Assembly (NCBI GenBank): GCA_012719545.1
Contig: JAAYAD010000012.1
Location: 1 to 64,000, forward strand
DNA: 64,000 bases
Direction: 5' to 3'
Source of the DNA: Clostridiaceae bacterium
GTDB taxonomy: Bacteria; Bacillota; Clostridia; DSM-8532
Under the pieces are notes generated by a model that was given only the letters and a program-made list of their open reading frames with translations, ran no database searches and was not told the origin of the DNA. Both the position numbers and the translations under genes were made by a program. Positions 4,904 to 22,007 of the stretch are shown here, in pieces. How positions within the stretch are numbered: the stretch's first letter is position 1; each line of letters begins with the position of its first letter.

Positions 4904-4906
4904 ATT

Positions 4907-4927: not shown

Positions 4928-4948
4928 TATTCTTTAAAGCTCAGTTAC

Positions 4949-5521: not shown

Positions 5522-5658
5522 GAATTTATCCCTCCTTTCTCAGATTTATTATTTGATTATTAACCTTGTATTATTTAAGATATATTTGTCAATTTATCTT
5601 GTTTTTTAGCATTTTTTATCGTAATATGATTTGATTTTTAAACTTTTTGTTAAAACTT

Positions 5659-5686
5659 AAAGAGCCCGGATTTAACCGGACTCTTT
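5659..5686 (-). terminator. terminator of the M42 peptidase operon
   Basis: AAAGAG/CTCTTT and an inner CCGG/CCGG pair form a stem with one mismatch. It sits ~70 bases past the last M42 stop, and the minus-strand side is T-rich. Confidence 0.6.
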
Positions 5687-5755
5687 AGTTTGCTTCCATA
5701 GAAGAAATTTAATCTGTGTTTATTTACCTTTGTCAGCATTCTTTTCTTTATTTCG

Positions 5756-6736
5756 TTATCCTTTGATAAATTCGCAAAGAAGCCTTACAGCATTTTCAAC
5801 ATCGTTCATATCAGCCATCTCAGACGCATCATGGATAAAACGGGTAGGAATTGAAATACCGCCTGAAGGAATACCACCTGCCGTGATATGTATGCTTCCG
5901 GCGTCAGTTCCACCATAAAGCGATACTTCAAGCTGATATGGGATATTCGCTTTTTCAGCAGCTCTTATAAGGCGATCCTTTACCTCGGGATGGGATATGA
6001 CACTTCTGTCCTTGATTTTAACGGTAGGACCCTTGCCCATCTTTACAGACATGGGCTTGCAGTTGGGAGTATCTCCTGTATCGCAGACGTCCAATGCCAG
6101 TGCCATATCGGGAACAATGCCAAAGGCTGCCGTTTTGGCGCCTCTTAAGCCTACTTCTTCCTGTGTTGTAAAGACATAATAAATTTCGTTATCTGTTTCT
6201 ACATTCCTAAGGGCTGTCTCTACCAGAATGGCACAGCCTAAGCGGTCATCAAGAGCCTTTGAAATGATTTTTCCGTTCTGCAGAACGGTTTCTCCCACAA
6301 ATATGCCCATATCGCCCACTTTAACCATCTTTTCGGCTTCTTCTCGTGATGATGCTCCTATATCAATGTACATTTTTTCTAGGGTGGCGTTCTTCATATT
6401 GTCAATGTTTTCCTCGTACCAGATAACTCCAACGGTTCCGTTTTCAAATCTGACCCTCTGTCCCATGATAATCAGTTGTGGGAGTCCTCCGACATTGCCA
6501 AACCTTAAGAAGCCATTTTCGTCAATATACGTTACTATAATGCCAATCTCGTCCATATGTGCTGCAAACATAATCTTTTTGCCGCTGCCTTTTTTAACAC
6601 AGATGAGATTGCCCATTGCATCGGTTCTGGTTTCATCCACTTTTCCTTTTAAAAGATTTTTTATTTTTTCAGCAACCTTCTTCTCATTTCCAGAAGGCCC
6701 GTAAGTTTGAGTCAGACTTTTTATAAGTTCAAACAT
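5756..6736 (-). CDS. M42 family metallopeptidase (third gene of the operon)
   Basis: 326 residues from the ATG at 6736, which sits eight bases after GGAGG; an upstream in-frame TTG at 6742 is less likely. M42 enzymes are cytoplasmic di-metal aminopeptidases that form tetrahedral dodecamers and trim short peptides. The metal ligand motifs are present: AHMDEIG, LDDRLGCA, QEEVGLRGA, ALDVCDTGD and the late His in RFIHDASEM. It is the last gene of three tandem paralogues and overlaps the preceding one by eight bases. Older annotations call such proteins endoglucanase M; there is no glycosidase signature here. Confidence 0.9.
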   Translation of the reverse strand: MFELIKSLTQTYGPSGNEKKVAEKIKNLLKGKVDETRTDAMGNLICVKKGSGKKIMFAAHMDEIGIIVTYIDENGFLRFGNVGGLPQLIIMGQRVRFENGTVGVIWYEENIDNMKNATLEKMYIDIGASSREEAEKMVKVGDMGIFVGETVLQNGKIISKALDDRLGCAILVETALRNVETDNEIYYVFTTQEEVGLRGAKTAAFGIVPDMALALDVCDTGDTPNCKPMSVKMGKGPTVKIKDRSVISHPEVKDRLIRAAEKANIPYQLEVSLYGGTDAGSIHITAGGIPSGGISIPTRFIHDASEMADMNDVENAVRLLCEFIKG

Positions 6737-7835
6737 GTTCAATTCCTCCTTGTTCCCGGTAAAGATTTATTGCCCGGTTTTCGTCCGAGTTTGAGAGTCT
6801 GCCCTCTTCCCATGCTTTAGGCAGCACCTCCAATACTTTCTTAGACAACCTAATCATATTCTCAAAATCGTTTTTGTCCATTACCGAAACCGGTGTGTGG
6901 ATGTACCTGCATGGCACTGCGATTGCCGCTACCTTTACACCCGTACCGTTTACCTGTATGCGCCCTGCATTGGTGCCGCCGGTTATTGTCTGCTTATATT
7001 GATATGGAATATTATTTGATTTTGCAATATCAACTATAAGGTTTAACAAGTCCCTGTCAACTATAACCGATCTGTCCATTACAGTCAGGGCAGGACCATT
7101 GCCGCATCTGGTACTCATGCTCTGTTCCTTTGTATCAGGAACATCATAGCAGGTTGTTCCCTCGAGAATCAAAGCTACATTGGGCATAACCCTGAAGGAT
7201 GCGGTTTTCGCGCCCTTAAGACCTATCTCTTCCTGAACGGTAAAGCAGCCGTAAACATCACATTCATAGCTTCCTTTGAGAAGCTCAATAAGTACGGCGC
7301 AACCAACCCTGTCATCAAGGGCTTTTGCCATGAGCTTATTATCGCCAAACTCTACCGGATCATATGCAAAGGCAACCGTATCACCGATTTCTACTTTGTC
7401 TTCGGCCTGCTGTCTGTCCTTAGCTCCGATATCTATGGTCAGCCTCTTTTTATCAACCGCTCCGGTCCGCTCATTTTTCTCCTGAAGATGAATAGGTTTA
7501 TAGCCAATTATGCCAGGAACGCCATTCTCTCCTACACGTACACGTTTTCCTACCAATACCCTGGACTCAATACCGCCAATGGTATGGAATTTCAAAAGTC
7601 CGTCGCAAGTAATCTGGGTAACCAAAAGGCCTACTTCGTCCATGTGGGCGTCAAGCATGATTTTTGGCCCCCTGCCCTTACCCTTTTTATAGGCAATAAG
7701 GTTTCCCATATTGTCCACAACTAAGTCATCCACATGATCCTTAATCTGTGACATTATAAAGTCCCGGACAGGACCTTCCTCTCCCGATACTCCATCCAGG
7801 GTGGTGAGTTTTTTCAAAATTTCATAAGCATCCAT
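6729..7835 (-). CDS. M42 family metallopeptidase (second gene of the operon)
   Basis: 368 residues from the ATG at 7835, whose A is the last base of the preceding stop (TGATG); an in-frame TTG lies one codon earlier. Metal-binding motifs are AHMDEVG, LDDRVGCA, QEEIGLKGA and RYIHTPVS. The usual Asp after the EE motif is ILEGTTCYDVPD, the Glu-containing form common in one M42 subgroup. It probably has a substrate preference different from its two neighbours. Tight overlaps on both sides imply co-translation, and mixed complexes are possible. Confidence 0.9.
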   Translation of the reverse strand: MDAYEILKKLTTLDGVSGEEGPVRDFIMSQIKDHVDDLVVDNMGNLIAYKKGKGRGPKIMLDAHMDEVGLLVTQITCDGLLKFHTIGGIESRVLVGKRVRVGENGVPGIIGYKPIHLQEKNERTGAVDKKRLTIDIGAKDRQQAEDKVEIGDTVAFAYDPVEFGDNKLMAKALDDRVGCAVLIELLKGSYECDVYGCFTVQEEIGLKGAKTASFRVMPNVALILEGTTCYDVPDTKEQSMSTRCGNGPALTVMDRSVIVDRDLLNLIVDIAKSNNIPYQYKQTITGGTNAGRIQVNGTGVKVAAIAVPCRYIHTPVSVMDKNDFENMIRLSKKVLEVLPKAWEEGRLSNSDENRAINLYREQGGIEHV

Positions 7836-8866
7836 CAATCCTTCGCCCTCCCTGCTATATAACGCGCCGCAAGCTTGCCGGTGGCAACAACATCGTCCAC
7901 CGATACCATTTCAACCGCCGTATGCATATATTTGGTGGGAACAGAGAGCAAGATGACCGGTATACCCTCACGGGCTACCGAATGAGCCGCGGCTTCGGTG
8001 CCTGTATCGCCGGCTTCCGGATCTATCTGATATGGAATGTTCTCACTCTTTGCAAGCTTGATAATTTCCTTTGTATGTTTGCGGCTAAGTATTGGGCCTA
8101 CGGCTATTGCCACTCCCTTTCCCAGAGGGAAAGTCTCATCACTTGGGCAATCTGGCATATCACCATGGCACGCATCAATTACAATGGCAAGATCAGCCTT
8201 TATATTATAGCTTGTGCTGAAAGCTCCAATAAGGCCCAGCTCTTCCTGAACCGTTGCTACTACATACACATCGTCCTCGTGATGGAGCTTTTTTAGCTCC
8301 TTTAATATCTCGATGAGTGCAGCGACTCCGCTTCTGTTATCCAGGCTCTTTCCTGCAATCCTGTTGTTAAGAAGCTTTTGAGGAACGGTTCTGAAAGACA
8401 CCATATCTCCTATGGATACAAGCTTTCTTGCCTCTTCGCCGTCAAGCCCGATATCTATTCTCATATCCTCCATTTTAACGGCTTTGCCGCTATCTTCCGG
8501 CGGTATAAGATGGGGTGGCTTTGCACCAATTACCCCAAAAAGATCCTTCTTGCCATGGACTGTAACTTCCATTGCGCCTATTGCCTTAGGATCCACTCCT
8601 CCTGCCGCATCAAAGCGCAGGAAACCTGTGTCCTCTATCCCTGTGACAATAAGGCCAATCTCATCATAATGGGCAGTGACAAGGATGCTTCGGGGATTTT
8701 TGCCGCATCCCTTTTTAAGACCAATAACATTATAAAAAGCATCGATGCGAACATCATCGCAGTACTCACGAAAAAGTCCGGCAATCTTCTCAGATGCCAT
8801 GTTTTCCCTGCCTGTAATCGCACTTATGCCGCTAAGCTCTTTTAAAAGCTCGCCGCATTCCATCAT
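7835..8866 (-). CDS. M42 family metallopeptidase (first gene of the operon)
   Basis: 343 residues; the start at 8866 follows GAGGTG. This paralogue has AHYDEIG instead of AHMDEIG, LDNRSGVA, QEELGLIGA, VIDACHGDMPD and KYMHTAVEM, so the di-metal site looks complete. It heads a three-gene operon transcribed away from the cysK cluster. Three adjacent M42 genes suggest specialised intracellular peptide breakdown with complementary specificities, as in archaea where several M42 TET complexes divide residue preference; that comparison is inference. Confidence 0.9.
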   Translation of the reverse strand: MMECGELLKELSGISAITGRENMASEKIAGLFREYCDDVRIDAFYNVIGLKKGCGKNPRSILVTAHYDEIGLIVTGIEDTGFLRFDAAGGVDPKAIGAMEVTVHGKKDLFGVIGAKPPHLIPPEDSGKAVKMEDMRIDIGLDGEEARKLVSIGDMVSFRTVPQKLLNNRIAGKSLDNRSGVAALIEILKELKKLHHEDDVYVVATVQEELGLIGAFSTSYNIKADLAIVIDACHGDMPDCPSDETFPLGKGVAIAVGPILSRKHTKEIIKLAKSENIPYQIDPEAGDTGTEAAAHSVAREGIPVILLSVPTKYMHTAVEMVSVDDVVATGKLAARYIAGRAKD

Positions 8867-9106
8867 ATAACACCTCTCAAAAAAAATTGTTCGGGTAAAT
8901 TGGAATAAAACCCCGATTGAATTATTATATCATTTTCTTTTAAAATCTTGCAGCAATTTATAAAGGTTCTGAAAATGTATCACTGTATTGCAACAGAAGA
9001 ACTGATTCCACAGATGATTCAACATAAAAAAATCCATATCTAAAAATTACCCAATATATGGTTACAGTATCCAAATTCAAAGGTCCAAACAGCCTGTCCA
9101 TTGTAT

Positions 9107-9136
9107 ATTATATAAAACCTATATGTTTTATATAAT
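9107..9136. promoter_or_regulatory. 12-bp perfect palindrome upstream of the cysK promoter
   Basis: ATTATATAAAAC and GTTTTATATAAT flank a 6-base centre and end seven bases before the -35 box. There is no GC stem or T-run after it, so it looks like a protein-binding operator rather than a terminator. The Rrf2-type protein encoded at the end of the cluster is the obvious candidate ligand; this is inference. Confidence 0.5.
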
Positions 9137-9142
9137 TTTTGT

Positions 9143-9172
9143 TTGACATATGGTCTTTCCCTTAATTATAAT
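9143..9172 (+). promoter_or_regulatory. sigma-A-type promoter of the cysK/nitrogenase-like cluster
   Basis: TTGACA at 9143-9148 and TATAAT at 9167-9172 are perfect consensus boxes separated by 18 bases, 61 bases before the cysK start. A further inverted pair, ATACAT (9188-9193) and ATGTAT (9201-9206), lies just downstream over the likely start of transcription and could be an operator. Confidence 0.7.
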
Positions 9173-9233
9173 TGTAACAACTTAAACATACATTTCATAT
9201 ATGTATAATATATTTTCGATTGGAGGCTGAACC

Positions 9234-10181
9234 ATGGCGCCCATTTATTCCAAGCTTACCGAACTTATTGGAAATACCCCGCTTCTTGAGCTTACCGACT
9301 ACAACAGGCAGAATGCAGTAAAAGCCAGGCTTATTGCAAAGCTTGAGTACTTTAATCCACTTGGGAGCGTCAAGGACAGAATTGCCCTTTCCATGATTGA
9401 GGACGCTGAAAAAAGAGGCATTATCACCAAGGACACCGTTATAATCGAACCAACAAGCGGAAACACAGGTATTGGCCTTGCATTTGTGGCCGCATCCAAA
9501 GGCTATCGTCTGATTCTTACCATGCCTGAAACCATGAGCCTTGAACGCAGAAGCATGCTTAAAGCCCTCAATGCCGAACTTGTGCTTACTCCGGGAAAAG
9601 AGGGCATGAAAGGTGCTGTCAGAAAGGCGGAAGAACTGGCTGCACAAATCCCCAATTCCTTCATCCCGCAGCAGTTCAACAACCCGGCAAACCCAAAGAT
9701 ACATAGAGAAACCACAGCAGAAGAAATCTGGAGGGACACAAAGGGCGAAATTGCTGCCTTTGTGGCAGGAGTGGGAACAGGAGGCACCATAACCGGAGTT
9801 GGCGAAGTGCTGAAAAGCAGAAATCCCAACATAAAAATTATTGCCGTTGAACCCTATGACTCGGCAGTTCTGTCAGGTTCAGCGCCCGGTCCCCATAAAA
9901 TTCAGGGAATTGGTGCAGGCTTCATTCCCTCTGTTCTTAACAGGGATGTTATTGATGAAATATACAAGGTAAGAACCGAAGAAGCATATGAAACATCCCA
10001 GGCACTTGCCCGCACCGAGGGACTTTTGGTTGGCATATCTTCAGGTGCTGCGGCTTTTGCAACAACTCAGATTGCGAAGCGTCCCGAATTTGAAGGAAAG
10101 ATTGTAGTTGTACTGCTTCCCGATACCGGTGAGCGATACCTCTCAACACCACTGTTTGAAAGCCTCGAACGACAAATTTAG
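9234..10181 (+). CDS. cysK: cysteine synthase A-type (O-acetylserine sulfhydrylase)
   Basis: 315 residues, normal for CysK. A PLP enzyme making cysteine from O-acetylserine and sulfide in the cytosol. The PLP lysine is in SVKDR; the TSGNTG substrate loop and the GTGGT phosphate-binding loop are intact. The ATG follows GGAGG. It is the first gene of the nitrogenase-like cluster, 12 bases ahead of the NifB-type gene, so the pathway product is probably sulfide or a thiol needing incorporation. In Bacillus subtilis CysK also acts as co-repressor partner of the Rrf2 protein CymR, and this cluster ends with an Rrf2 gene, so CysK may both assimilate and sense here. Use of another nucleophile such as methanethiol cannot be excluded. 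Confidence 0.93.
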
Positions 10182-10193
10182 GGAGGAATTTCT

Positions 10194-11087
10194 ATGGCAT
10201 CCGCTGCAATTCAATCCTCTCCAACTCTTGATAAAATATCAAACCTGCATCCATGTTTTAGCGGCAAAGCACATATGACAAGGGGACGAATCCATCTTCC
10301 AGTGAGCCCTTCCTGCAATATTGGCTGCAAATTCTGCAAAAGAAGCCTGACCAAAACGGAAATGCGGCCCGGAACGGCTATGGAGATAATTACCCCCGAG
10401 AAAGCCCTGGAGCTTTTGGATAAAGCACTTCAAATCTGTTCTGAAATAACCGTTGCAGGAATAGCAGGACCTGGTGATACATTGGCCACCCCCCATGCCC
10501 TTAAAACCTTCAGGCTTATTCATGAAAAATATCCTCATCTTATTTGCTGCCTAAGCACCAACGGGCTTTTGCTGGAGCGCTATGCCGAAAGCCTTGTGGA
10601 AGCGGGAGTCAGAACCATTACAGTCACTGTAAATGCAGTGGATCCAGATATACTTAAGGATATATGCTCCTACGTTGTTTTAAACGGGCAGCAGTATGTG
10701 GGTAAAGAAGGTGCAGCGCTTTTAATCGAAGCCCAGAAGCGCGGAATAAAAAAGATGGCTGAGCTGGGAGCCATAGTGAAAATAAATATCGTTCTGATAC
10801 CGGGAATCAACGATAACCATATAGGCGAAATTGCCCGGACAGTTAAAGATTTGGGTGCTTCAATTATTAACATTATTCCCCTCATACCCCAGCACCAGCT
10901 TTCCCACATTCCCGCTCCCACCTGTCAGGAGCTAGCCAAAGCCCGTATGGAAGCGGAAGAGTACCTGCCTGTTTTCAGGCATTGCAGGCACTGCCGGGCA
11001 GATGCCTGCGGAATACCCGGAAAGAAAGATTTGGCTGAACTTCTGTACGAAACCAGGGGTATTCAGGAAACATTTTCCCACGGCTAA
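10194..11087 (+). CDS. NifB-type radical SAM cofactor-assembly protein (core domain)
   Basis: 297 residues. NifB fuses two Fe4S4 clusters and inserts a carbide to make the Fe8S9C precursor (NifB-co) of nitrogenase cofactors. The NifB opening HPCF (residues 19-22) and AHMTRGRIHLPV precede the radical SAM motif CNIGCKFC (Cys41, Cys45, Cys48). The C-terminal CRHCRADACG (Cys264, Cys267, Cys272) matches the NifB tail that binds the auxiliary clusters. There is no fused NifX domain; a separate NifX-type gene lies later in the cluster. It is preceded by GGGAGGAATTTCT. Its presence implies that the reductase uses a NifB-derived carbide cluster rather than only Fe4S4 clusters. Confidence 0.9.
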   Translation: MASAAIQSSPTLDKISNLHPCFSGKAHMTRGRIHLPVSPSCNIGCKFCKRSLTKTEMRPGTAMEIITPEKALELLDKALQICSEITVAGIAGPGDTLATPHALKTFRLIHEKYPHLICCLSTNGLLLERYAESLVEAGVRTITVTVNAVDPDILKDICSYVVLNGQQYVGKEGAALLIEAQKRGIKKMAELGAIVKINIVLIPGINDNHIGEIARTVKDLGASIINIIPLIPQHQLSHIPAPTCQELAKARMEAEEYLPVFRHCRHCRADACGIPGKKDLAELLYETRGIQETFSHG

Positions 11088-11164
11088 ATCACTTTAAATT
11101 ATCCACTTATCTGAAAAGTCATTCTTATAAAGCCTTGCAATTCAATATAAACGGAGGGAAACCT

Positions 11165-12502
11165 ATGAGCAAGTTTGTTGACCGCCCGCGCTATACCTGT
11201 ACCCTGGGGGGAGCTCTGGCAACACTTCGCGCCATACCTCGGGCCATCCCCATTATCCATGCATCTGCGGGCTGCGGCCATAATCTTCACAACGCAATAA
11301 ATCCGGGAGGCGGATATTTGGGCGGAGGTTATTGCGGTGGATTAAGCCTTCCCAGCAGCAACGTTACTGAGCGAGACATTGTTTTTGGCGGAGAGAACCG
11401 TCTGAGAGAACAAATCAAAACCACTCTTGAGGTAATGGATGGAGATATTTATCTCGTTCTTACAGGCTGCATGGTTGAAATGATAGGTGACGATCTGGAC
11501 GCGGTTGTTTCAGAATTCTCAGACTACGACAAACCCGTTCTTCCCGTACATACGCCAAGTTTCAGGGGTAATTCCTTTACAGGCTATGAGCTGGTTTTAA
11601 GCTCATTAATACGAAAATATGTCAAAAAGCAAAGCAAAATCCCCGGTAATGTCAACATCCTTGGCATTGTCCCCGCCCAGGACCCTTTCTGGCAGGGAAA
11701 CTTAAAAGAAATAAAGAGGCTTCTTGAAAAGCTGGGGCTTAAGGTTAACACCCTCTTTGGAGAAGGAGAGGGTCTTGAAAGCATAAGAAATGCAGGAAGC
11801 GCCTCATTGAATATCGTGGTTTCCGACACTTACGGCATAACTGCTGCCAGAACCTTTGAAGAAGTGCATGGTATCCCCTATATTACAACTGGCCTTCCCA
11901 TTGGTGCCGAAGCAACGGGAAATTTCTTAAGGGCGGTATCAGACGCGCTCTCAATTGACAAAACTTTGACAGAGTTTGTCATAGCTCAGGAGGAATTAAT
12001 TTATTACAGCTATCTTGAAAGGCTTGCCGACATTTACAACGATATTGACCTTCAAAGGTATGCCGTAGTGGTAGCCGACGCCAACTACGCTCCTGCCCTT
12101 TCAAAATTTTTGTCAGATGAATTGGGCTGGCTTCCTGAGCTTGTAGTTATAACTGATTTACTGGAGGAATCACAAAAATACATATTGCTTGAACGCTTTA
12201 AAAACTATCAGTCGGGGCTTACTCCGGTCGTTAAATTCGACACCGACGCTTCGTCCATAAAAAAATATCTGGCGGAAATACGTCCACCAAACAGAAATCA
12301 GAGATATTATGACTCCTTCAGCCCAGCAGTGATATTGGGAAGTGTTTATGAAAGGGATATTGCCGGAGAATTTGGATTCCCCCTCTTAACCGTATCATTC
12401 CCCGTAACAAACCGGGTTGTTCTGAATCGTTCCTATGTAGGCACAAATGGCGCTTTAAGCCTAGCGGAGGATCTGCTTGGCTTACTGGTAGCAGGAAGAT
12501 AG
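11165..12502 (+). CDS. nitrogenase-like component 1 subunit, NifK-like
   Basis: 445 residues from the ATG at 11165, eight bases after GGAGGG; an upstream in-frame ATG at 11135 lacks such a site. Family features are the N-terminal Cys12 motif (CTLGGALA), Cys37 in SAGCGHN, Cys57 in GGGYCGG, the TERDIVFGGENRL stretch equivalent to NifK TEDAAVFGG, and Cys102 in TGCMVEMIGDDLDAV. Cys37, Cys57 and Cys102 are suitable P-cluster ligands. It is shorter than NifK (~520) because the long N-terminal extension is missing. It should pair with the NifD-like protein, twelve bases downstream. It is not BchB/BchZ-like or CfbD-like in layout. Closest functional analogy is the MarK class, by context only. Confidence 0.85.
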   Translation: MSKFVDRPRYTCTLGGALATLRAIPRAIPIIHASAGCGHNLHNAINPGGGYLGGGYCGGLSLPSSNVTERDIVFGGENRLREQIKTTLEVMDGDIYLVLTGCMVEMIGDDLDAVVSEFSDYDKPVLPVHTPSFRGNSFTGYELVLSSLIRKYVKKQSKIPGNVNILGIVPAQDPFWQGNLKEIKRLLEKLGLKVNTLFGEGEGLESIRNAGSASLNIVVSDTYGITAARTFEEVHGIPYITTGLPIGAEATGNFLRAVSDALSIDKTLTEFVIAQEELIYYSYLERLADIYNDIDLQRYAVVVADANYAPALSKFLSDELGWLPELVVITDLLEESQKYILLERFKNYQSGLTPVVKFDTDASSIKKYLAEIRPPNRNQRYYDSFSPAVILGSVYERDIAGEFGFPLLTVSFPVTNRVVLNRSYVGTNGALSLAEDLLGLLVAGR

Positions 12503-12514
12503 GAGGAATGAAAC

Positions 12515-14041
12515 ATGAATTATCTTGAAGCTATATCCGCACCTGCCCGTGAAAACAGATTAAGAGCCAATATAGCCTTTGGCGGAACCTGCGGCGATAT
12601 TAAGGGTTGTCTTAAAAAAGGCTGCTTTTCGGGAAACGGCTGTTTAAACCTTGCAGGAAGACGTTTTTCCCAAACCCAGGGCTGCCAGTTCACATTAAGC
12701 CTTGCAATTTTGAACACCCTGCGAAATGCCGTGGTAATAATGCATTCCCCCATTGGATGCGGCACCTGCACCATCTCAAATGTGGGTGTGAACAAAACCT
12801 TCAAGCAGCTTCGGGACCCTAACTCTGAAGGAATCATATGGCTTTCTACAAATCTGGATGAAGCCGACGTAATAAGCGGCGGCGAAAGAAAGCTGCGTGA
12901 GGCTGTGCTTTTTGCGGATAAGGAATTCCGCCCCGAGACAATCATTGTTGCCAATGGCTGCGTTCCTTCCCTCATTGGAGATGATATTGACAGTATTATT
13001 TCCGACCTTCAGAACCAGACTGCGGCAACCATTGTTCCCATTCACTGCGAGGGCTTTAAGACAAAGGTCATGGCTACAGCCTATGATGCAGTATATCACG
13101 GTATATTGAAAAAACTAGTCAAAAAGCCGGAAAGACAGCGCTATCTAGTCAATGATGACGTTGAGGCTTTAAAGGAATCTTACAAAATAGGAAGAAACGT
13201 AAATGTGTTTAATGTGGGCTCCATGAGCCGGGCCGATGAGCTTGAGCTAAAGAGGCTGTTAAATGCCCTGGGCCTTAATGTGACCTTCATCCCCTGCTAC
13301 GCTGAGCCCGAAGACTTTCAATATTCGCTGGAATCCTCATTAAACATTAGCATCTGCGGAACCCATGACGACTACTTTTTAGAGCACATTAAGGAAAAGT
13401 ATGATATCCCCTTTATCATAGATACCATGCCCATAGGAAGGAAAAATACCGACAGGTGGCTTTTGAAAATTGCCGCACATTTCGGCCTTGAGAATGAGGC
13501 AAGAAAGTTAATTGAGACGGAAAATGCAGAACTGGATAAATGCCTTGAATCCTTCCGCGAAACTCTTAAAGGAAAAAGAGCCTTTATTTCGGGAGGAGAA
13601 GTAAGAATCTTAGCCACTGCCGAAATACTGCAGGATTTGGGCATGAAGCTTGTGGGATTTAAGGCGCACCATTTTGACGAGTTTATAGAGCCTGTATTTG
13701 ATGCCCTTGAAAATGTTGATGATGTGGTGTTTGATGTAGCCACTAACCAACCCTTTGAACAGGCAAACCTTCTTAAAAGGATCAAGGCTGATATCTTAAT
13801 AACCCATACCGGAGGAAACAATATTCTGGCCAAGATTGGCCTTCCCATTCTTCCCCTGTTCGGCCCTGCCTACAACTACCTGGGCTATTCAGGTGTATTC
13901 GAAGTTGCAAGACGCCTTAACAGAGTCATAAGAAACGGACAGTTCAACAAACAGCTGTCACTGCACACCAAGCTTCCATATAAAGAGGAATGGTACAAAA
14001 AGGATCCCTTTACATACATCGTGGAGCAGGATGCTGTGTAA
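12515..14041 (+). CDS. nitrogenase-like component 1 subunit, NifD-like, with altered active site
   Basis: 508 residues, start preceded by AGGAGG. P-cluster cysteines equivalent to NifD 62, 88 and 154 are Cys57, Cys82 and Cys149 (NGCVPSLIGDD). The cofactor cysteine (NifD Cys275) is Cys281 in NISICGTHDDYFLEHI. By eye alignment to Azotobacter NifD, the pocket residues differ: Gln191 becomes Met186, His195 becomes Tyr190, and the cofactor ligand His442 becomes Phe449 (KIGLPILPLF). The N-terminus carries four extra cysteines (26, 32, 37, 43) that could hold another cluster. It therefore probably binds a NifB-derived cofactor but is unlikely to reduce N2. The neighbours suggest a sulfur compound as substrate, as in methylthio-alkane reductase; unproven. 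Confidence 0.87.
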   Translation: MNYLEAISAPARENRLRANIAFGGTCGDIKGCLKKGCFSGNGCLNLAGRRFSQTQGCQFTLSLAILNTLRNAVVIMHSPIGCGTCTISNVGVNKTFKQLRDPNSEGIIWLSTNLDEADVISGGERKLREAVLFADKEFRPETIIVANGCVPSLIGDDIDSIISDLQNQTAATIVPIHCEGFKTKVMATAYDAVYHGILKKLVKKPERQRYLVNDDVEALKESYKIGRNVNVFNVGSMSRADELELKRLLNALGLNVTFIPCYAEPEDFQYSLESSLNISICGTHDDYFLEHIKEKYDIPFIIDTMPIGRKNTDRWLLKIAAHFGLENEARKLIETENAELDKCLESFRETLKGKRAFISGGEVRILATAEILQDLGMKLVGFKAHHFDEFIEPVFDALENVDDVVFDVATNQPFEQANLLKRIKADILITHTGGNNILAKIGLPILPLFGPAYNYLGYSGVFEVARRLNRVIRNGQFNKQLSLHTKLPYKEEWYKKDPFTYIVEQDAV

Positions 14042-14059
14042 GGGATGGGAGGTAATGGT

Positions 14060-15022
14060 ATGAATCGCAGAATAAGCTTTGACATAAAGACACTTATTCC
14101 AAGCCTTAGCGCAGCCCTTGCCCTGATTTTGCACTTATCTATACCAAACAGCCGAAAGTATCTTCAAAAACCTCTCCCATATTTTACGACAGCCTTGATT
14201 ATAACTATTTTTGTCACCCTGGCATTGGCTGTTGTGTCACTATTTAATGACAGGCTACGAAAAAAGTACAGCTATAAATCCTGGTTCATTGGGGCATCCA
14301 TTCTGTTTTTGAACCTTTTGAACCTTGCAACCATAAAAATCATGCTCCTTCAATCCATTTACTTTCCTTCACCTGACCGCATACTCAAGGTTTTCGTGGA
14401 TGACTGGCAGTTCATGTTAAAATGCCTTGGCTATTCTATACGCCTCCTTTCAACCGGTTATGTCATAGGCGCGGTTGCGGGCATAACCACAGGGATATTG
14501 GTGGGATGGAGCAAAAAGTGGAGCTATTGGATAAATCCCCTGATAAAAATCATAGGACCCATTCCTCCTACCGCCTGGGTTCCAATTGCTCTGGTCTCCT
14601 TCCCCACCACATTTGCTTCAAGCGTGTTTCTGATAAGCCTTGCAGTATGGTTTCCCACAACTGTGCTTACCAGCTCGGGCATATCCAATGTGCAAAATTC
14701 ATATTTCGAAGTTTCCAGCACCCTTGGAGCCAATACCGTTCAAAAAATTTTCAAGGTTGCCCTGCCTGCTGCCATGCCCAGCATATTTATAGGTATTTTT
14801 AACGGAACCAGCGCATCCTTTATTACCTTGATGACGGCAGAAATGCTGGGTGTAAAATTCGGCATAGGCTGGTACATCAACTGGCAAAGAGAAATGCTTT
14901 CCTATGCCAATGTCTATGCGGGCCTTATCATTATCGCCATTACCTTTTCCCTCATTATTACGCTTATGTTCAGAATAAGGGACTGGGTATTAAGCTGGCA
15001 GAAAGGGGTTATCAAATGGTAG
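14060..15022 (+). CDS. ABC transporter permease, SsuC/TauC (nitrate/sulfonate/taurine) type
   Basis: 320 residues from ATG 14060, seven bases after GGGAGG; an upstream in-frame ATG at 14045 overlaps the ribosome binding site. Residues ~15-100 hold about three extra hydrophobic segments, then the standard SsuC-type permease core follows, with the EAA-loop region ISNVQNSYFEVSSTLGANTVQKIF that contacts the ATPase. It lies 18 bases after the NifD-like gene and overlaps the ATPase gene by seven bases. Location in the middle of the reductase operon implies that the transporter brings in the reductase's substrate. Confidence 0.88.
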   Translation: MNRRISFDIKTLIPSLSAALALILHLSIPNSRKYLQKPLPYFTTALIITIFVTLALAVVSLFNDRLRKKYSYKSWFIGASILFLNLLNLATIKIMLLQSIYFPSPDRILKVFVDDWQFMLKCLGYSIRLLSTGYVIGAVAGITTGILVGWSKKWSYWINPLIKIIGPIPPTAWVPIALVSFPTTFASSVFLISLAVWFPTTVLTSSGISNVQNSYFEVSSTLGANTVQKIFKVALPAAMPSIFIGIFNGTSASFITLMTAEMLGVKFGIGWYINWQREMLSYANVYAGLIIIAITFSLIITLMFRIRDWVLSWQKGVIKW

Positions 15023-15807
15023 AAACAAAAACCGGAAAAATTACCGTATCCAATGTCAGGAAAACTTTTACCCAGCCTGACGGACAACAGGTGGTTGCCC
15101 TTGACCAGGTCAACGCCCACATTGAACCCGGAGAATTCATATGCCTTATTGGCCCCTCGGGCTGCGGAAAATCCACCTTCTTGAGGCTTCTTGCAGGCCT
15201 TATAAGCCCCGATGAAGGAGAACTTCTTCTGGACGGAAGCCCAATTGTTGGTGCAGGGTACGAGCGCGGCCTTGTGTTTCAGGACCCGACCCTGTTCCCA
15301 TGGCTTACGGTATACGAAAACGTGGCTTTTGGGCTTAAGGTAAGAAATACATACAAGGAGAAAAAGGATGAAGTTCCGGAGTTTATAAACCTTGTGGGCC
15401 TTAAGGGGTTCGAAAAAGCTTATCCCCACCAGCTTTCGGGCGGCATGGCTCAAAGGGCGGCTCTGGCAAGAGCACTGGTTAATCACCCTAAGGTGTTGCT
15501 TCTGGATGAACCTTTTGGTGCTCTGGACGCTTTTACCCGAATGAATATGCAGGATGAACTGATTAAAATCCTGCAGCAGCGCGGCACTACTGCCATTATG
15601 GTAACCCATGATGTGGATGAGGCAATTTACTTAAGCGACAGGATATTTGTCATGACTCCACGCCCAGCAAAAATTGAGTCCATTATACGGGTGGAAATAG
15701 GAAGACCCAGGGACAGGGATTTACCTGACTTTTTAAAGCTCAGGGCCAGAATTCTTCAGATACTGAATTTCGCCGGAAAACGCGAGGACATTCAATATTA
15801 TCTCTAA
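15016..15807 (+). CDS. ABC transporter ATPase, SsuB/TauB type
   Basis: 263 residues. Walker A GPSGCGKST, Q-loop in VFQDPTLFPW, signature LSGGMAQRAALARA, Walker B VLLLDEPFGALD and the switch His in MVTHDVDEA are all intact. The LFPWLTVYENVAFGL stretch is typical of the nitrate/sulfonate/taurine ATPase family. It powers import from the cytoplasmic face and is translationally coupled to the permease. Confidence 0.9.
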   Translation: MVETKTGKITVSNVRKTFTQPDGQQVVALDQVNAHIEPGEFICLIGPSGCGKSTFLRLLAGLISPDEGELLLDGSPIVGAGYERGLVFQDPTLFPWLTVYENVAFGLKVRNTYKEKKDEVPEFINLVGLKGFEKAYPHQLSGGMAQRAALARALVNHPKVLLLDEPFGALDAFTRMNMQDELIKILQQRGTTAIMVTHDVDEAIYLSDRIFVMTPRPAKIESIIRVEIGRPRDRDLPDFLKLRARILQILNFAGKREDIQYYL

Positions 15808-15842
15808 TTCAATAAATAAGATTTATGGAAAGGAGAATCTCT

Positions 15843-16940
15843 ATGAAAACTGGTTACATAAAAGGGCGCATTATTTATATTTTCATTGCCTTGGCGTTGA
15901 TTATATCCATGATTACAGCCTGCGGAAAGCCGGCATCTTCCAATAATCCTTCCAATACCGGAACTCCGTCTGACACACACGTCGCGGATAATACCTCCAA
16001 ACAGCCCGAATCCAAAAATTCAGGCGATGAAATTACATTGAGGATTGGCTATGGCGGAAGTCTCTGCGAAGCACCCCTTCACATGGCTGTTGAAAAGGGA
16101 TACTTTGAGGAAGAAGGTCTTAAGGTTGAACTTATAAAGCTTGCTCCAGGAACCTTGTTTGACGCGGTTACCTCAAACCAGATTGACGCAGGATTCTCCC
16201 TTTTGGCAAGTCTTATCCAGCCTTTGTCCAATGGTCTTCCCATAAAGATTACCACAGGTCTTCATACAGGATGTGACAAAGTATTGGTTAAGCCTGATTC
16301 AGGCATCACTTCCCCCAAAGATTTTATTGGCAAAAAAGTGGGAGTTCCCAGCTTTACCAGCAGCCCCATTATCTTTGCCAAGAGGGTTCTTGCCGATAAC
16401 GGCGTAAGCGTCCGCATTGAGGATGCCCAGGTAGAATTTGTGGTATTTAACACCACCGACCTTCCCCTTGCTCTTGAGAACGGTTCTGTTGATGCCATTG
16501 CCATGAATGACCCGACTGCCACAATAGCAGCCAACGAATACGGTTTTAAGGTAATTTTCGACTCTGCTCTGGATGAACCATATAAGGATCAGTATTGCTG
16601 CTCGGCCTTTGTACGTGAAAACATAGCGGAAGACTATCCTGAAATTGCCGCCAAATATACGCGTGCCATGCAAAAAGCCAGCGCATGGGTGCAGAGTAAC
16701 CAGGACGAGGTAGCAAGAATACAGGTAGAAAACAAATGGGTAGCAGGCGACGCTGCTGTTAATGCGGAGGTTCTTAAAACCTTCAATTACATACCTTCCG
16801 TAAGCGGCGCATATGAGATTTTCGGCATTACAGCAGATCAACTTCAGGAAGTGGGTATGCTTGAAGAAGATGTAGACACCAAAGCCTTGCAGGAAAACAG
16901 CTTTGTGTTCCTGGACGGAATACCTGAGGAGTTTAAATAA
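15843..16940 (+). CDS. substrate-binding lipoprotein, NMT1/SsuA/TauA-like
   Basis: 365 residues from ATG 15843, seven bases after GGAGAA; an upstream TTG/ATG reading is less likely. A lipoprotein signal with Cys ~27 (IISMITAC) is followed by a Ser/Asn/Thr-rich linker and then a periplasmic-binding fold of the NMT1 family (LRIGYGGSLCEAPLHMAVEK, then GYFEEEGLKVEL). Family ligands include sulfonates, taurine, nitrate and thiamine precursors. Binding-site residues cannot be read by eye. With cysK and the reductase genes around it, an organosulfur ligand is the best inference. After it comes a 393-base gap with strong inverted repeats. Confidence 0.87.
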   Translation: MKTGYIKGRIIYIFIALALIISMITACGKPASSNNPSNTGTPSDTHVADNTSKQPESKNSGDEITLRIGYGGSLCEAPLHMAVEKGYFEEEGLKVELIKLAPGTLFDAVTSNQIDAGFSLLASLIQPLSNGLPIKITTGLHTGCDKVLVKPDSGITSPKDFIGKKVGVPSFTSSPIIFAKRVLADNGVSVRIEDAQVEFVVFNTTDLPLALENGSVDAIAMNDPTATIAANEYGFKVIFDSALDEPYKDQYCCSAFVRENIAEDYPEIAAKYTRAMQKASAWVQSNQDEVARIQVENKWVAGDAAVNAEVLKTFNYIPSVSGAYEIFGITADQLQEVGMLEEDVDTKALQENSFVFLDGIPEEFK

Positions 16941-17333
16941 ATTAGCCCCCAACCATTGAAATCAAATTCACCGATTTATTGGCTATTGCCAGAAGCCATT
17001 TAGCGCTCCGTGAAAACATCCAGTTTTCAAGTCGCGCCCGCTACGCTGTCCATGCTTCGCTTTAAATGGCTTCTGGCACGCCGCTCCATATGATTCCAAT
17101 AAATATTGTATTCGAAGTAAAAGATCTGACAAGTTCAAATAAACTTATTGTTTGCGATAAGCGCCAGTAATTTAAACTTCTGCAGCCGAATGCGTTTAGA
17201 ACTCCGTAAAACATCCGCTTATAACGGAGAATCCGCTATATTAAGTCATTATCCTGCTTTAAATCTATGCATGCTTTGGCTGCTTGAATTGAGTGTGACT
17301 AATAAGTTTCGTACAGCTAGCGAGGTGAAGCAA
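16941..17333 (+). promoter_or_regulatory. structured 393-base spacer before nifX-nifH
   Basis: No credible gene is seen. A 16-bp perfect inverted repeat (TGCCAGAAGCCATTTA at 16987-17002 and its complement at 17063-17078) encloses a 60-base loop. The loop itself contains a 7-bp hairpin, TGAAAAC/GTTTTCA. The string CTCCGTGAAAACATCC (17006-17021) recurs as CTCCGTAAAACATCC (17202-17216), where CTCCGT now pairs with ACGGAG (17224-17229). No T-run follows the large stem, so it is more likely an mRNA processing or stability element, or a relic repeat, than a simple terminator. Confidence 0.55.
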
Positions 17334-17711
17334 ATGGGAATGGGATGGCGGATAGCAGTTGCTACTACCGATGGAAAGGTCATAAACGAACACTTTGGAA
17401 GAGCCAGGGCTTTTTATATTTTTGATATTAAACTGGACGGAACCCATGAGTTTCTCGAAAAGCGGACGGTGACACCATTATGCAGGGACTGGAACCATGA
17501 TGATAATGCTCTTCTGGATATAACAGAAAGGCTTAAGGACTGCTCTGCGGTATTGGTATCAAAAATAGGTCCGTCTGCCATGAGAATTCTTGAAATCAAC
17601 GGGATTGCGGTTTTCGAAGAGGCCAATTACATTGACGATGCTCTCGGCAAAATGGCCAGGTACTTTGTAAAAACAAATTATATCAGTCGGAGGAATGAAA
17701 ACTATGGCTAA
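17334..17711 (+). CDS. NifX/NifB-C-terminal-type cofactor carrier protein
   Basis: 125 residues from ATG 17334, preceded by GAGGTG; a longer upstream reading at 17148 runs through the structured spacer and lacks family similarity. It belongs to the dinitrogenase iron-molybdenum cofactor family: [19 protein letters not shown] at the N-terminus, a mid [18 protein letters not shown] segment and GIAVFE. Such proteins hold and pass NifB-co during cofactor assembly. Here it complements the NifB-type protein, which lacks this domain. Its stop overlaps the nifH-like start by eight bases, so the two are co-translated. Confidence 0.85.
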
Positions 17712-18582
17712 AAAGACGACTCAGATTGCAATATATGGCAAAGGCGGCATAGGCAAGTCCACTACAACCTCGAACCTTTCCGCTGCTTTGTCCAAACTTG
17801 GGTTTAAAGTAATGCAGTTTGGCTGCGACCCAAAAAGCGATTCCACAAACACATTAAGAAACGGCACATATATACCCACTGTACTTGATACCTTAAGGGA
17901 AAAGACTTCGGTAAATGCCCATGACGTTATTTATGAGGGCTTTAACGGCATATACTGCGTGGAGGCAGGAGGACCCGCACCAGGTGTGGGCTGCGCCGGC
18001 CGCGGAATTATTACGGCGGTGGAGCTTTTCAAGCAGCAGCGTGTCTTTGAAGAGCTTGATCTGGACTATGTAATTTATGATGTATTGGGTGATGTTGTGT
18101 GCGGCGGATTTGCCGTTCCCATCCGGGAAGGCATTGCAGAGCATGTCTTTACCGTATCATCGGCTGATTTTATGGCCATATATGCTGCCAACAACCTGTT
18201 CAAGGGCATAAAAAAATACTCCAATTCCGGCGGAGCACTTCTTGGCGGTATTATTGCCAACTCCATCAATGCCCCCTATGCCAGGGAGATCATTGATGAT
18301 TTTGCCCAAAAGACAAAAACCCAGGTAATAGAATACGTTCCCCGCTCAGTAACGGTAACCCAGTGCGAGCTTCAGGGAAAAACCACCATTGAAGGGGCGC
18401 CCGATTCTGCCCAGGCAAAGGTTTACATGAATCTAGCCGAAAAAATAGCCAATCATACCCAGTCCAAAACCCCTGAGCCCCTTGGCATTCAGGAACTTCG
18501 TGAATGGGCCGCCAAATGGGGAGATTACCTCCTAGCCCTGGAAACCGGAGTCATAAGGCCCGAGCTTGCCGGCAATTTGTAA
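17704..18582 (+). CDS. NifH-type reductase (component 2) of the nitrogenase-like system
   Basis: 292 residues from ATG 17704, ten bases after GGAGG; the ATG at 17695 is too close to that site. It is the homodimeric ATP-driven electron donor to the NifDK-like partner. The P-loop GKGGIGKST, the switch region GCDPKSDST, and the Fe4S4 ligands Cys97 (VGCAGRG, with Arg100) and Cys133 ([10 protein letters not shown]) are conserved. The C-terminus ([21 protein letters not shown]) differs from NifH of true nitrogenases. It overlaps the NifX-type gene and lies after a structured spacer, which could allow its level to differ from the DK subunits. No draT/draG is present. Confidence 0.9.
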
Positions 18583-18597
18583 GACCAACAATGGAAG

Positions 18598-18647
18598 TTG
18601 ACATAAGCCTTTATATTACATATGATTTTAATGCATACATAATGTAT
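18598..18647 (+). promoter_or_regulatory. promoter and candidate operator of the rrf2 gene
   Basis: TTGACA (18598-18603) and TATGAT (18621-18626) are 17 bases apart. Nine bases further the perfect palindrome ATACAT-A-ATGTAT (18635-18647) covers the likely transcription start. The same half-sites, ATACAT and ATGTAT, occur just after the cysK -10 box with a wider spacing. This suggests one regulator acting on both promoters, most simply the Rrf2 protein itself. Confidence 0.6.
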
Positions 18648-18666
18648 ATGAAAAGAGGCTTATGAT

Positions 18667-19113
18667 ATGAGAGTTTCCGCAAAGGCGCGCTATGCACTGG
18701 CTGCCCTTGTCACCATGGCGCAGCAGTGTCATACAGGAGAATACATTACCGTTATCAGTATCTCTGAAAAACTTGGAATATCAAAAATATACCTTGAGCA
18801 GGTTTTCTCCCTTTTAAAAAGGGGAGAAATCGTAACTTCCATTAAGGGAGCCCAGGGAGGATACCAGCTTACACGCTCCCCGGGCCAGATTACGGTTTAT
18901 GATGTATTATCCGCTATAGAAACATCTCTTTTTGAAAAGGCCGTGGACACAGTATCCCAAACCGAGCCAGCCATAGACTCGGCATTGCATTCGGTGGTTT
19001 TTGATACATTGGACGCTGCAATCAAAGATACTCTGGAAAAAATAACACTTGATGATATATTAAACGAAGCCGAGCGGCAGAAGAAGGATCAGGCTCTTAT
19101 GTTCTATATATAG
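18667..19113 (+). CDS. Rrf2-family transcriptional regulator, CymR-like
   Basis: 148 residues. An N-terminal winged helix begins MRVSAKARYALAALVTMA, and GISKIYLEQVFSLLKRGEIV and GAQGGYQLTR are classic Rrf2 features. IscR, NsrR and RirA bind Fe-S clusters through three clustered cysteines near residues 92-106; this protein has only Cys21, outside that region, so it is the cluster-free type like CymR. CymR represses cysteine and sulfur-uptake genes in Firmicutes and needs CysK as partner. The gene has its own promoter with a palindrome and ends the cluster; its last 17 bases overlap the convergent flavoprotein gene. Confidence 0.88.
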   Translation: MRVSAKARYALAALVTMAQQCHTGEYITVISISEKLGISKIYLEQVFSLLKRGEIVTSIKGAQGGYQLTRSPGQITVYDVLSAIETSLFEKAVDTVSQTEPAIDSALHSVVFDTLDAAIKDTLEKITLDDILNEAERQKKDQALMFYI

Positions 19114-20716
19114 GAGCATACTTTTCCATTATTTTTTCTGCCGCCTTTACCCCGTCAATGGCGGACGACATGATTCCGCCAGCATAGCCGGCCCCTTCTC
19201 CCACAGGATACAAACCTTTGATATTTGATTCAAAGTTATCATCCCTGTTTATCCTGACCGGGGAAGAGCTTCTTGTTTCAACCCCTGTCATAATGCCATC
19301 GGGCATGGCAAAGCCCTTTATTTTTGTGTCAAAATACAATATTGCCTCTTTCAATGTATTTATAACATAGTCAGGAAGGCACTCCTTTAATTGGGCAAAT
19401 ACGACTCCCGGTTTATAAGTTGGCCTCACTTTCCCCCACTCAGTACTTGGTTTGTCAGAAAGAAAATCGCCAATTAACTGTGCCGGAGCATGATAATTGC
19501 ACCCTCCGGCCTTGAAGGCAAGGCTTTCCCATTTTCTCTGAAATTCAATTCCTGCTAAGGGATGGTCGCTTAAAAAATCCCCGGGGGTAATTCCAACCAA
19601 TACCGCCGAATTGGCATTTTCCCCATCCCTCTTATGCTCGCTCATGCCGTTTGTGACAACCCCGTTTTTTTCCGACGCGGCTGCCACCACATATCCTCCG
19701 GGGCACATGCAGAAGGTATATGCTGACCTTCCGCTTTTGGAATGATATGAAAGCTTGTAATCGGCGGCGGGAAGGCTGAAAGTGTCGGCTGCATTCCCAA
19801 ATTGAGCCCTGTTGATAAGGCTTTGAGGATGCTCTATGCGAACCCCTATTGAAAAGGGCTTTTGGCTCATGAAAACACCTCTTTTATGCAATACCTCAAA
19901 GGTATCCCGGGCACTGTGGCCGGTGGCAAGGAAAACATGCCTGCAGGGAAGAGTATCCCCGTCATTTATTACTACTCCCTCTATCTGTCCGTTCTTAATG
20001 ACAAAATCCGTTACCTTTGCCCTGAATCTAACCTCACCGCCATGAGCAATTATTTGCTGCCTGATATTTTTTATGGTGGGCTTTAGCATATCAGTTCCGA
20101 TATGGGGCTTACTCCAGTACAATATCTCATAAGGAGCACCGTTATTAACAAACTCCTCCAAAACATAGCGGCATCTTATGTCATTTATAAGTGTTGTGAG
20201 CTTTCCGTCGGAAAAGGTCCCTGCACCGCCTTCACCAAACTGTACATTACACTCGGTATCAAGTATGGATTCGGACCAGAACCTGTTGATTTTTTCAGTT
20301 CTTGTATCCACATCATCCCCTCTTTCAAGGATAATGGGCCTATAACCGTTTCTGGCAAGAACAAGACCGGCAAAGAGGCCGGCAGGGCCGCTTCCTATTA
20401 TTACAGGGCGTTCCTCAATCTTTCTGGTCCCCTTTGCAACAGGCTTATAGGATATGTCAGGTGAAGGGCTTATTCCCTTGACTTTTTTATTTTCAAGAAT
20501 TCGCTTTTCGTTTGTAACTTCAACATCTACGTTATATACATAAAATATCTCGTTCTTTTTTCTTGCATCGATGGACTTTTTGAAAATTCTGATTTCCTTT
20601 AAGTCCTTTTCGCTTATTCCAAGCCTTGACAATACTTTTTTACGCAAGGCTTCATTTTCCGTTTTTAAATCCTTTACTTCTCTTATATCTATCTTGACTT
20701 CCGATAACCGTATCAT
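19097..20716 (-). CDS. NAD(P)/FAD-dependent oxidoreductase (COG2509 type)
   Basis: 539 residues. An N-terminal domain of ~95 residues precedes a Rossmann FAD-binding motif, GSGPAGLFAG (residues 108-117). A second conserved region, GLYPVGEGAGYAGGIMSSA, lies at the C-terminus, where FAD is closed in. The family is widespread in clostridia and annotated only as FAD-dependent dehydrogenase; substrate unknown. It is convergent with rrf2 and overlaps its 3' end. It lies 58 bases after the end of the flavoprotein gene upstream. A role in the nitrogenase-like system is possible only by proximity and is not supported by strand. Confidence 0.85.
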   Translation of the reverse strand: MIRLSEVKIDIREVKDLKTENEALRKKVLSRLGISEKDLKEIRIFKKSIDARKKNEIFYVYNVDVEVTNEKRILENKKVKGISPSPDISYKPVAKGTRKIEERPVIIGSGPAGLFAGLVLARNGYRPIILERGDDVDTRTEKINRFWSESILDTECNVQFGEGGAGTFSDGKLTTLINDIRCRYVLEEFVNNGAPYEILYWSKPHIGTDMLKPTIKNIRQQIIAHGGEVRFRAKVTDFVIKNGQIEGVVINDGDTLPCRHVFLATGHSARDTFEVLHKRGVFMSQKPFSIGVRIEHPQSLINRAQFGNAADTFSLPAADYKLSYHSKSGRSAYTFCMCPGGYVVAAASEKNGVVTNGMSEHKRDGENANSAVLVGITPGDFLSDHPLAGIEFQRKWESLAFKAGGCNYHAPAQLIGDFLSDKPSTEWGKVRPTYKPGVVFAQLKECLPDYVINTLKEAILYFDTKIKGFAMPDGIMTGVETRSSSPVRINRDDNFESNIKGLYPVGEGAGYAGGIMSSAIDGVKAAEKIMEKYAPIYRT

Positions 20717-20774
20717 AAAAACTCCTTAATAAACTTTCCTTCCACAGTATGAACTAAATCATATAAATAGCAGC

Positions 20775-22007
20775 CTATAAAGCGGCGTTTACTCCTGCGG
20801 TGTACCCGCTGGACCATGCCCATTGCAGGTTAAAGCCTCCGCACTGACCGTCTATGTCCATAATTTCCCCGGCAAAGAATAAACCCTTTACCAGCTTGGA
20901 CTCCATGGTATTTTCATCAATTTCACCTGTATCCACGCCGCCTGCGGTTACCTGAGCGCTCTGCCAGCCCTTTGTTCCGCGGATTTTAAACATCCAGCCG
21001 TTTATTAGCCGTGCAATTCTTTCACGCTCATTTTTGGTTACATTTCCGGCAGGCTTTTTTAAATCCTGTATTCCCGCCTCTTTAAGCACCACGGGTATAA
21101 GTCTTTTGTTTATAAGGCCAACAAGAGAGAAATCCAGAGGCTTATTGGCCCCTGTCATAAAACGCCTTTCGAGAATGCTGTTTAACTCGTCCAGCGTAAA
21201 TCTGTCCAAAAGATTAATTTTTAAATATGCGTCCTTACCTTCATTTAATAGCTTTCCTGCAGGCCTGCTAAGCTGAAATATAGGGGGCCCGGATACGCCA
21301 TAATTTGCAAAAAGGATATCTCCTTTGTCCCTCGCAATGGTCTTATTGTTGAATATAAGCTCTGCAGTACCTTCAAGCTTGACTCCGTCAATCTGTTTAA
21401 AAAAGGAGCCTTCAAGCATGATTTGAACTAAGGCCGGAAAAATATCCGTCACTTTATGACCCAGCTTCTGAGCCAGAGGATAGCCGTTTCCGTCTGAACC
21501 GCTGGAGGGCATTGCCTTCCCTCCGGTAGCAATAATAACCCTGTCCCCTTCATAAGTTCTGCCATTTTCAAGGGTAATTTTGAATATGCCCTTTTTATTT
21601 GCTATATTTGTAACATTAGCATCACAAATAATTTCTATGCCCAGTTGGTTAAGCTCATATAAAAGGACATCCAGAATACTTGATGCCTGGTCGGACATGG
21701 GAAAGACCTTCCCCCCGTCCTCAACCTTATGTTCAATTCCAAGTTCCTCAAAAAAGCGTATGGTGTCGCTGACGGAGAAATTGCCCAATGCCCCTTTGAC
21801 AAATTCAGGGTTCTTACCGTAGTAATTGGCAACATCGGTATAGATATTGGTATAGTTGCATCGTCCGTTTCCGGTAGCCAGGATTTTCTTTCCTACCCGA
21901 GGATTCTTCTCTAATATTGCAACCTCTGCACCCTTCCTCCGGGCCCATATGGCTGCCATCATTCCGGAAGCTCCTCCGCCGACTATAAGCACACGCTTCC
22001 CCGCCAT
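20775..22007 (-). CDS. HI0933-type flavoprotein (NAD(P)/FAD-dependent oxidoreductase)
   Basis: 410 residues from ATG 22007, preceded by AGAGGAG; a longer upstream frame adds 29 unlikely residues. FAD-binding VLIVGGGASGMMAA is at the very N-terminus, followed by the family signature ATGNGRCNYTN and the C-terminal GLFFAGEIMDIDGQCGG. The HI0933/YhiN family has a known structure but no agreed substrate. It is upstream of, and on the same strand as, the other flavoprotein, so the two are probably co-transcribed. Confidence 0.9.
   Translation of the reverse strand: MAGKRVLIVGGGASGMMAAIWARRKGAEVAILEKNPRVGKKILATGNGRCNYTNIYTDVANYYGKNPEFVKGALGNFSVSDTIRFFEELGIEHKVEDGGKVFPMSDQASSILDVLLYELNQLGIEIICDANVTNIANKKGIFKITLENGRTYEGDRVIIATGGKAMPSSGSDGNGYPLAQKLGHKVTDIFPALVQIMLEGSFFKQIDGVKLEGTAELIFNNKTIARDKGDILFANYGVSGPPIFQLSRPAGKLLNEGKDAYLKINLLDRFTLDELNSILERRFMTGANKPLDFSLVGLINKRLIPVVLKEAGIQDLKKPAGNVTKNERERIARLINGWMFKIRGTKGWQSAQVTAGGVDTGEIDENTMESKLVKGLFFAGEIMDIDGQCGGFNLQWAWSSGYTAGVNAAL

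Follow-up and report, generated by a model that had tools for sequence, protein, structure and literature searches.

The window analyzed here, a stretch of 64,000 nucleotides from a Clostridiaceae bacterium (GCA_012719545.1, contig JAAYAD010000012.1), contains an operon of nitrogenase-like genes in the order cysK-nflB-nflK-nflD-ssuCBA-nifX-nflH, all read in one direction and separated at most junctions by short gaps or overlaps. The same order occurs in a same-genus genome (L130) and in a same-family genome (L136). The operon and its control elements comprise:

9107–9136, plus strand: 30-bp palindrome ATTATATAAAACCTA/TATGTTTTATATAAT (15-nt arms, 93% complementary), candidate operator just upstream of the promoter
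9143–9172, plus strand: promoter-like TTGACA-18-TATAAT before cysK (consensus match 12/12)
9234–10181, plus strand: cysK, cysteine synthase, first gene of the operon (TIGR01139, 462.6 bits, above the cut-off of 350.95)
10194–11087, plus strand: nflB, stand-alone NifB-like radical SAM enzyme without a NifX domain, homologous to NifB 7jmb
11135–12502, plus strand: nflK, NifK/MarK-like subunit (best solved relative MarK, E=1e-85)
12515–14041, plus strand: nflD, NifD/MarD-like catalytic subunit, nearest solved relative MarD
14045–15022, plus strand: ssuC-like ABC permease (PF00528; top NCBIfam matches nitrate, SaoP and taurine permeases, all under cut-off)
15016–15807, plus strand: ssuB-like ABC ATPase (PF00005)
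15825–16940, plus strand: ssuA-like substrate-binding protein (TIGR01728 SsuA family, 113.6 bits, under the cut-off of 163.5)
17148–17711, plus strand: nifX-like cofactor carrier (PF02579, E=7e-19), true start probably internal
17695–18582, plus strand: nflH, MarH-like ATP-dependent reductase (MarH 493 bits, best NifH 282)
18598–18626, plus strand: promoter-like site of the Rrf2-family gene (consensus match 11/12)
18667–19113, plus strand: Rrf2-family regulator (PF02082; CymR and IscR models about 93 bits each, under their cut-offs)

The palindrome is a possible binding site of the Rrf2-type regulator of the operon. A search of window positions 4000–24000 with Rfam returned no riboswitch or T-box; an unrelated c-di-AMP riboswitch is present in another locus of the comparison set (L132). 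Divergent from the cysK operon, at 5756–8866 on the minus strand, lie three tandem genes, which we take to be M42-aminopeptidase-like. Downstream of the operon and on the opposite strand (22243–23921, minus), we recognized by eye from the translation a glnK- and amtB-like pair.

NflB aligns with the solved NifB 7jmb over residues 14–281, the radical SAM core (E=1.7e-84), including the HPC motif, the CxxxCxxC motif and C264/C267; against TIGR01290 it scores 266 bits over profile positions 7–287 of 441, under the cut-off of 343.65. The likely start of nflK is the ATG at 11165. Cysteine conservation identifies Cys22, Cys47, and Cys112 as the P-cluster cysteines of NflK, which has a further one, Cys67, within the loop GGGYCGG and 20 residues past Cys47. 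Apart from nflH (335.9 bits), no gene of the genome matches NifH strongly, with all other scores at 36 bits or less.

The open reading frame of nflD is intact and encodes 508 amino acids belonging to the nitrogenase component 1 family (PF00148, 242.8 bits). The top solved relative is MarD of the Rhodospirillum rubrum methylthio-alkane reductase (MAR; E=3e-69), with the next family at 5e-30, and the curated NifD model gives NflD 146 bits, far below its cut-off of 653.55. An AlphaFold2 model (mean pLDDT 84.9, pTM 0.86) superimposes on MarD 9fmg with a Z-score of 39.3 and 2.3 Å across 455 residues, and on NifD with a Z-score of about 31. The product of nflD is the catalytic subunit of a nitrogenase-related enzyme, which probably does not fix nitrogen.

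We mapped the residues by hhalign of an NflD family profile (64 sequences) against the NifD profile (probability 100%, E=1e-54); NifD residues are given in A. vinelandii numbering, from which the reference 9hbn is offset by +10. The codons of the residues concerned are:

12683–12685, plus strand: Cys57, P-cluster (NifD Cys62, MarD Cys66)
12758–12760, plus strand: Cys82, P-cluster (NifD Cys88, MarD Cys91)
12959–12961, plus strand: Cys149, P-cluster (NifD Cys154, MarD Cys158)
13070–13072, plus strand: Met186 (NifD Gln191, MarD Trp195)
13082–13084, plus strand: Tyr190 (NifD His195, MarD Phe199)
13355–13357, plus strand: Cys281, cofactor ligand (NifD Cys275, MarD Cys270)
13670–13672, plus strand: His386 (MarD His375)
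13805–13807, plus strand: His431, suggested here to be the other ligand of the cofactor (MarD Loop I His429, NifD Gly424)
13859–13861, plus strand: Phe449, opposite NifD His442

The four cysteines proposed by the initial annotation from an alignment by eye, Cys57, Cys82, and Cys149 for the P-cluster and Cys281 for the cofactor, were recovered with the same NifD counterparts. They are kept in every aligned clade member covering them, and this conservation is not due to chance. Other cysteines of NflD are less constant: Cys43, N-terminal to Cys57, is conserved in the two groups closest to NflD and, for the most part, in the sister group, but is not conserved in the clade of MarD-like proteins defined below (RH-type), and Cys26 and Cys32 are partially conserved.

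The losses described in the same annotation were likewise reproduced. NflDK shares with Mo-nitrogenase NifDK the fold, the P-cluster cysteines and the cofactor cysteine, whereas Val70, Arg96, Gln191, His195, Lys426, and His442 of NifD are not conserved. Val90 replaces Arg96, and Gly433 stands where NifD has Lys426, a homocitrate contact. The positions checked as marks of Nif, Vnf, and Anf nitrogenases, Gln191, His195, and His442, are Met186, Tyr190, and Phe449 in NflD; the residues of the N2-reducing pocket are lost. The suggestion of a more hydrophobic pocket holds for the side chains at the compared positions.

The same annotation had the cofactor held by one cysteine, as NifD His442 is Phe449 in NflD. 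This part does not stand. His431 of NflD falls on MarD His429 in HMMER, MAFFT, and hhalign alignments alike, and it is invariant in a 40-sequence alignment, in all clade members covering the site and also in the RH clade. In the cryo-EM structure of MarD, His429 binds Fe8 of the [Fe8S9C] cluster and belongs to an extended loop that nitrogenases lack (PMC12552129). MarD has no histidine at the NifD-442 position, which is why earlier sequence work overlooked its second ligand (PMC12552129); His431 was missed here because NifD was the sole comparison. Both sequence and profile alignment would therefore place a histidine near the cofactor, the very observation that the initial annotation had named as incompatible with its proposal. 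Because a conserved His431 aligns with the structurally proven ligand of MarD, two protein ligands are to be expected, as in MAR, and we propose His431 as the second cofactor ligand of NflD on a MarD-type loop. Binding by Cys281 alone, with the other end of the cluster lacking a protein ligand, is very improbable and was rejected in view of His431. His386, which corresponds to MarD His375, a residue close to the belt sulfide S2B (PMC12552129), is almost as conserved as His431. Two divergent relatives on long branches deviate in this region: the Loop I His segment is missing from the alignment in one (L008), and the other has Leu at the His386 position (L007).

The genome (2.95 Mb, estimated to be 99.99% complete) contains only two PF00148 genes. 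The nflDK pair is consequently its sole NifDK/EN-type pair, leaving no NifEN. Curated NifV was not found in the genome either, in line with the missing nifV of the initial annotation, and with it no homocitrate pathway: all matches lie below the cut-off (best 326.6 bits against 462.9), and such sub-threshold matches also turned up in every control genome. NifEN and NifV are expected of Nif, Vnf, and Anf nitrogenases for cofactor maturation. The bare [Fe8S9C] cluster derived from NifB that the initial annotation envisaged therefore remains the likely cofactor, given a NifB-type synthase gene, the presence of nifX and nflH in the operon, the absence of NifE, NifN, and curated NifV, and the retention of Cys281 and His431. 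At the level of sequence, the best reading is that these two residues of NflD hold the cluster.

A rival reading is N2 fixation with a simplified [Fe8S9C] cluster, as proposed for the Group IV nitrogenase of Endomicrobium proavitum, which is reported to take up 15N2 without NifEN (PMC9147875); NifEN and NifB carrying the L-cluster can also reduce N2 (PMC13245594), and the amtB-glnK pair is only about 3 kb away, downstream and on the opposite strand. Nevertheless, we consider this quite unlikely, since Gln191 and His195 are missing, N2 is not a substrate of MAR, whose cluster is alike (PMC12552129), and the genes are set among cysK and an ABC transporter. By analogy, the nifHDK-like genes of Paenibacillus sabinae, which are not nitrogen-regulated and do not complement nifH or nifD mutants (PMC4246453), may also speak against it.

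In a quick maximum-likelihood tree, NflD belongs to a 50-row clade (SH-aLRT 100) nested in a 67-row group (98) and separate from the MarD clade; the deep joins of the tree are tentative because long branches occur. The NflD clade has members in Bacillota, in Spirochaetota, with many Treponema MAGs, in Synergistota, and in other groups. A cultured relative, Sporobacter termitidis DSM 10068, has an NflD with 78% identity. We refer to proteins with an Arg preceding the Loop I His as RH-type (n=18, including the MarD orthologue L027). All non-RH sequences of the clade and of its sister group carry Tyr at position 190, where the 18 RH-type proteins without exception have Phe. At position 186, Met is invariant among the 47 closest relatives, and most of the 22 that follow have Gln or Met; Trp predominates here in the sister group and is invariant in the RH-type proteins. 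Cys67 of the K subunit is found in nearly all non-RH members of the clade and sister group; MarK has Gly, and the RH clade has other residues at this site except for one row, probably mispaired with the wrong D gene.

These signatures bear on whether the enzyme is a true MAR, which would reduce methylthio-alkanes such as dimethyl sulfide or methylthioethanol to a hydrocarbon and methanethiol, the latter for methionine synthesis. Among solved structures, NflD, NflK, and NflH come closest to MarD, MarK, and MarH, respectively, and MarBHDK of R. rubrum (PDB 9fmg, 9d9u; PMC12552129) has the same set of B, H, D, and K components. Both systems have six P-cluster cysteines (Cys57, Cys82, and Cys149 in NflD; Cys22, Cys47, and Cys112 in NflK) and a cofactor cysteine and Loop I histidine at equivalent positions (Cys270 and His429 in MarD; Cys281 and His431 in NflD), and NflD, like MarD, would do without homocitrate. 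However, the Arg428 next to His429, the proposed hallmark of MAR (PMC12552129), is Thr430 in NflD and T, A, G, V, or S in the close clade, never Arg. The pocket residues Trp195, Phe199, His194, and Cys73/Gln74 of MarD are Met186, Tyr190, Val185, and Ala64/Ile65. Judged by its separate clade with Tyr in place of MarD Phe199, the lack of Arg428 and the extra cysteine in the K subunit, NflD is in all likelihood not a MAR, and the gene neighborhoods also speak against this identity.

Among 68 clade D genes, 50 have cysK within 5.5 kb (27 of the 34 with full flanks) and none has metY, in loci that were picked by similarity to NflD and are not phylogenetically independent. Of the 18 RH-type D genes, four, including that of the MarD orthologue (L132), have metY nearby and four have cysK. 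The contrasts between clade and RH-type gave Fisher p=0.0002 for cysK and 0.001 for metY, with rows that are not independent. Arg428 alone does not serve as a predictor of metY: most RH-type loci lack metY within reach, and four have cysK. We therefore claim the cysK/metY contrast only for the subclade near MarD, in which the MarD orthologue and its nearest relatives have metY rather than cysK as a neighbor. In the sister clade (L094–L106), the order of D and K is reversed; most loci have a URO-D-type methyltransferase gene directly upstream and several have genes for a corrinoid protein and RACo nearby. Clusters of the URO-D/corrinoid/RACo type have been tied to methyl-sulfur metabolism (PMC10418091).

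Regarding function, NflDK and NflH would constitute a two-component, ATP-dependent reductase with the cofactor residing in NflD. NflH would hand electrons to the P-cluster at the NflD–NflK interface, from which they would reach an Fe-only [Fe8S9C] cluster built by NflB and seated in NflD on Cys281 and His431, free of homocitrate and Mo. The adjacent ABC transporter would import a small organosulfur compound whose C–S bond NflD would cleave, presumably releasing sulfur at the level of sulfide for CysK to fix into cysteine. As an operon partner, cysK suggests sulfide as the product. In the genome, we found no protein with a NIR_SIR domain (sulfite/nitrite reductase) and no convincing PAPS reductase, only one marginal 25-bit match; a sulfide-level product would thus be needed. 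The cysK linkage, the lack of a sulfite reductase domain and the methyl-sulfur-type genes of the sister clade lead us to favor a C–S reductase for cysteine. NflD probably breaks carbon–sulfur bonds with an iron–sulfur–carbide cluster, the sulfur entering cysteine, and we assign a probability of roughly 55% to the full reading, in which NflHDK is an ATP-driven C–S reductase with an [Fe8S9C] cofactor supplying sulfide-level sulfur for cysteine via CysK. Speaking against it, the SsuA-like binding protein points to no substrate; an attempt to deduce one was uninformative, as the top solved relatives are unspecific NMT1/THI5-like proteins and taurine binders. The linkage to cysK could also mean only co-regulation under sulfur starvation. 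The MAR product methanethiol goes to methionine (PMC12552129), and the absence of MAR pocket residues His194, Trp195, and Arg428 implies that the chemistry of NflD may differ from that of MAR.

The transporter genes recall another sulfur enzyme, IsrBHDK of Rhodobacter capsulatus, a Group IV-type enzyme likewise encoded in a sulfur operon, which works with an SsuCAB transporter (PMC11423573). A similar reduction of a sulfonate such as isethionate, with release of sulfite, appears improbable here. IsrD lacks the counterparts of NifD Cys62, Cys154, and Cys275, two P-cluster cysteines and the cofactor cysteine, and IsrB is not NifB-like (PMC11423573), whereas NflD, set apart from IsrD by this published description, has all three and NflB is NifB-like. 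The lack of a sulfite/nitrite reductase domain in the genome also argues against a sulfite-releasing reaction. We therefore rejected an Isr identity.

Group IV nitrogenase-like genes are already known, as is one operon combining nifDK and cysteine synthase. Group IV-A proteins (PMC9147875, PMC10418091) include NfaDK and those of type I MGC clusters; the sister clade of NflD has the URO-D methyltransferase, corrinoid, and RACo genes of such clusters, but the NflD clade differs in being mostly cysK-linked. In the termite spirochete Pillotina corrugata, group-IV nifD and nifK share an operon with a cysteine synthase gene, for which the authors suggest a role in sulfur metabolism; the passages concerned contain no ligand, clade or product analysis (PMC13067680), and the cysK linkage of Nfl spans several phyla. 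Within the literature examined, three things are new: a second ligand provided by the Loop I His in a clade other than MAR, the signatures in the pocket and at K Cys67, and the cysK/metY contrast. It is conceivable, at slightly less than even odds, that the clade represents a distinct and widespread anaerobic class of [Fe8S9C] reductases that desulfurize an organic sulfur compound and pass the resulting sulfide directly into cysteine synthesis. Such a class would have a pocket of its own (Tyr190; Met, Gln or Trp186; Arg428 missing) and, near the P-cluster ligands in sequence, K Cys67 as a seventh conserved cysteine.

By published account, no nitrogenase-like enzyme other than MAR has been shown to contain clusters of the nitrogenase type while not fixing N2 (PMC12552129). 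That a multi-phylum clade has the MAR-type second ligand but not the MAR pocket suggests a branch-wide arrangement in which the Loop I His binds [Fe8S9C] and the pocket is tuned to each substrate. The partner gene would then predict the product, sulfide for cysK and methanethiol for metY. Both kinds are found in one genome of the same genus (G004), which has the cysK operon (L130) together with an nflDK-metY-ssuACB-nflH cluster (L128, G004:C89:1-12000).
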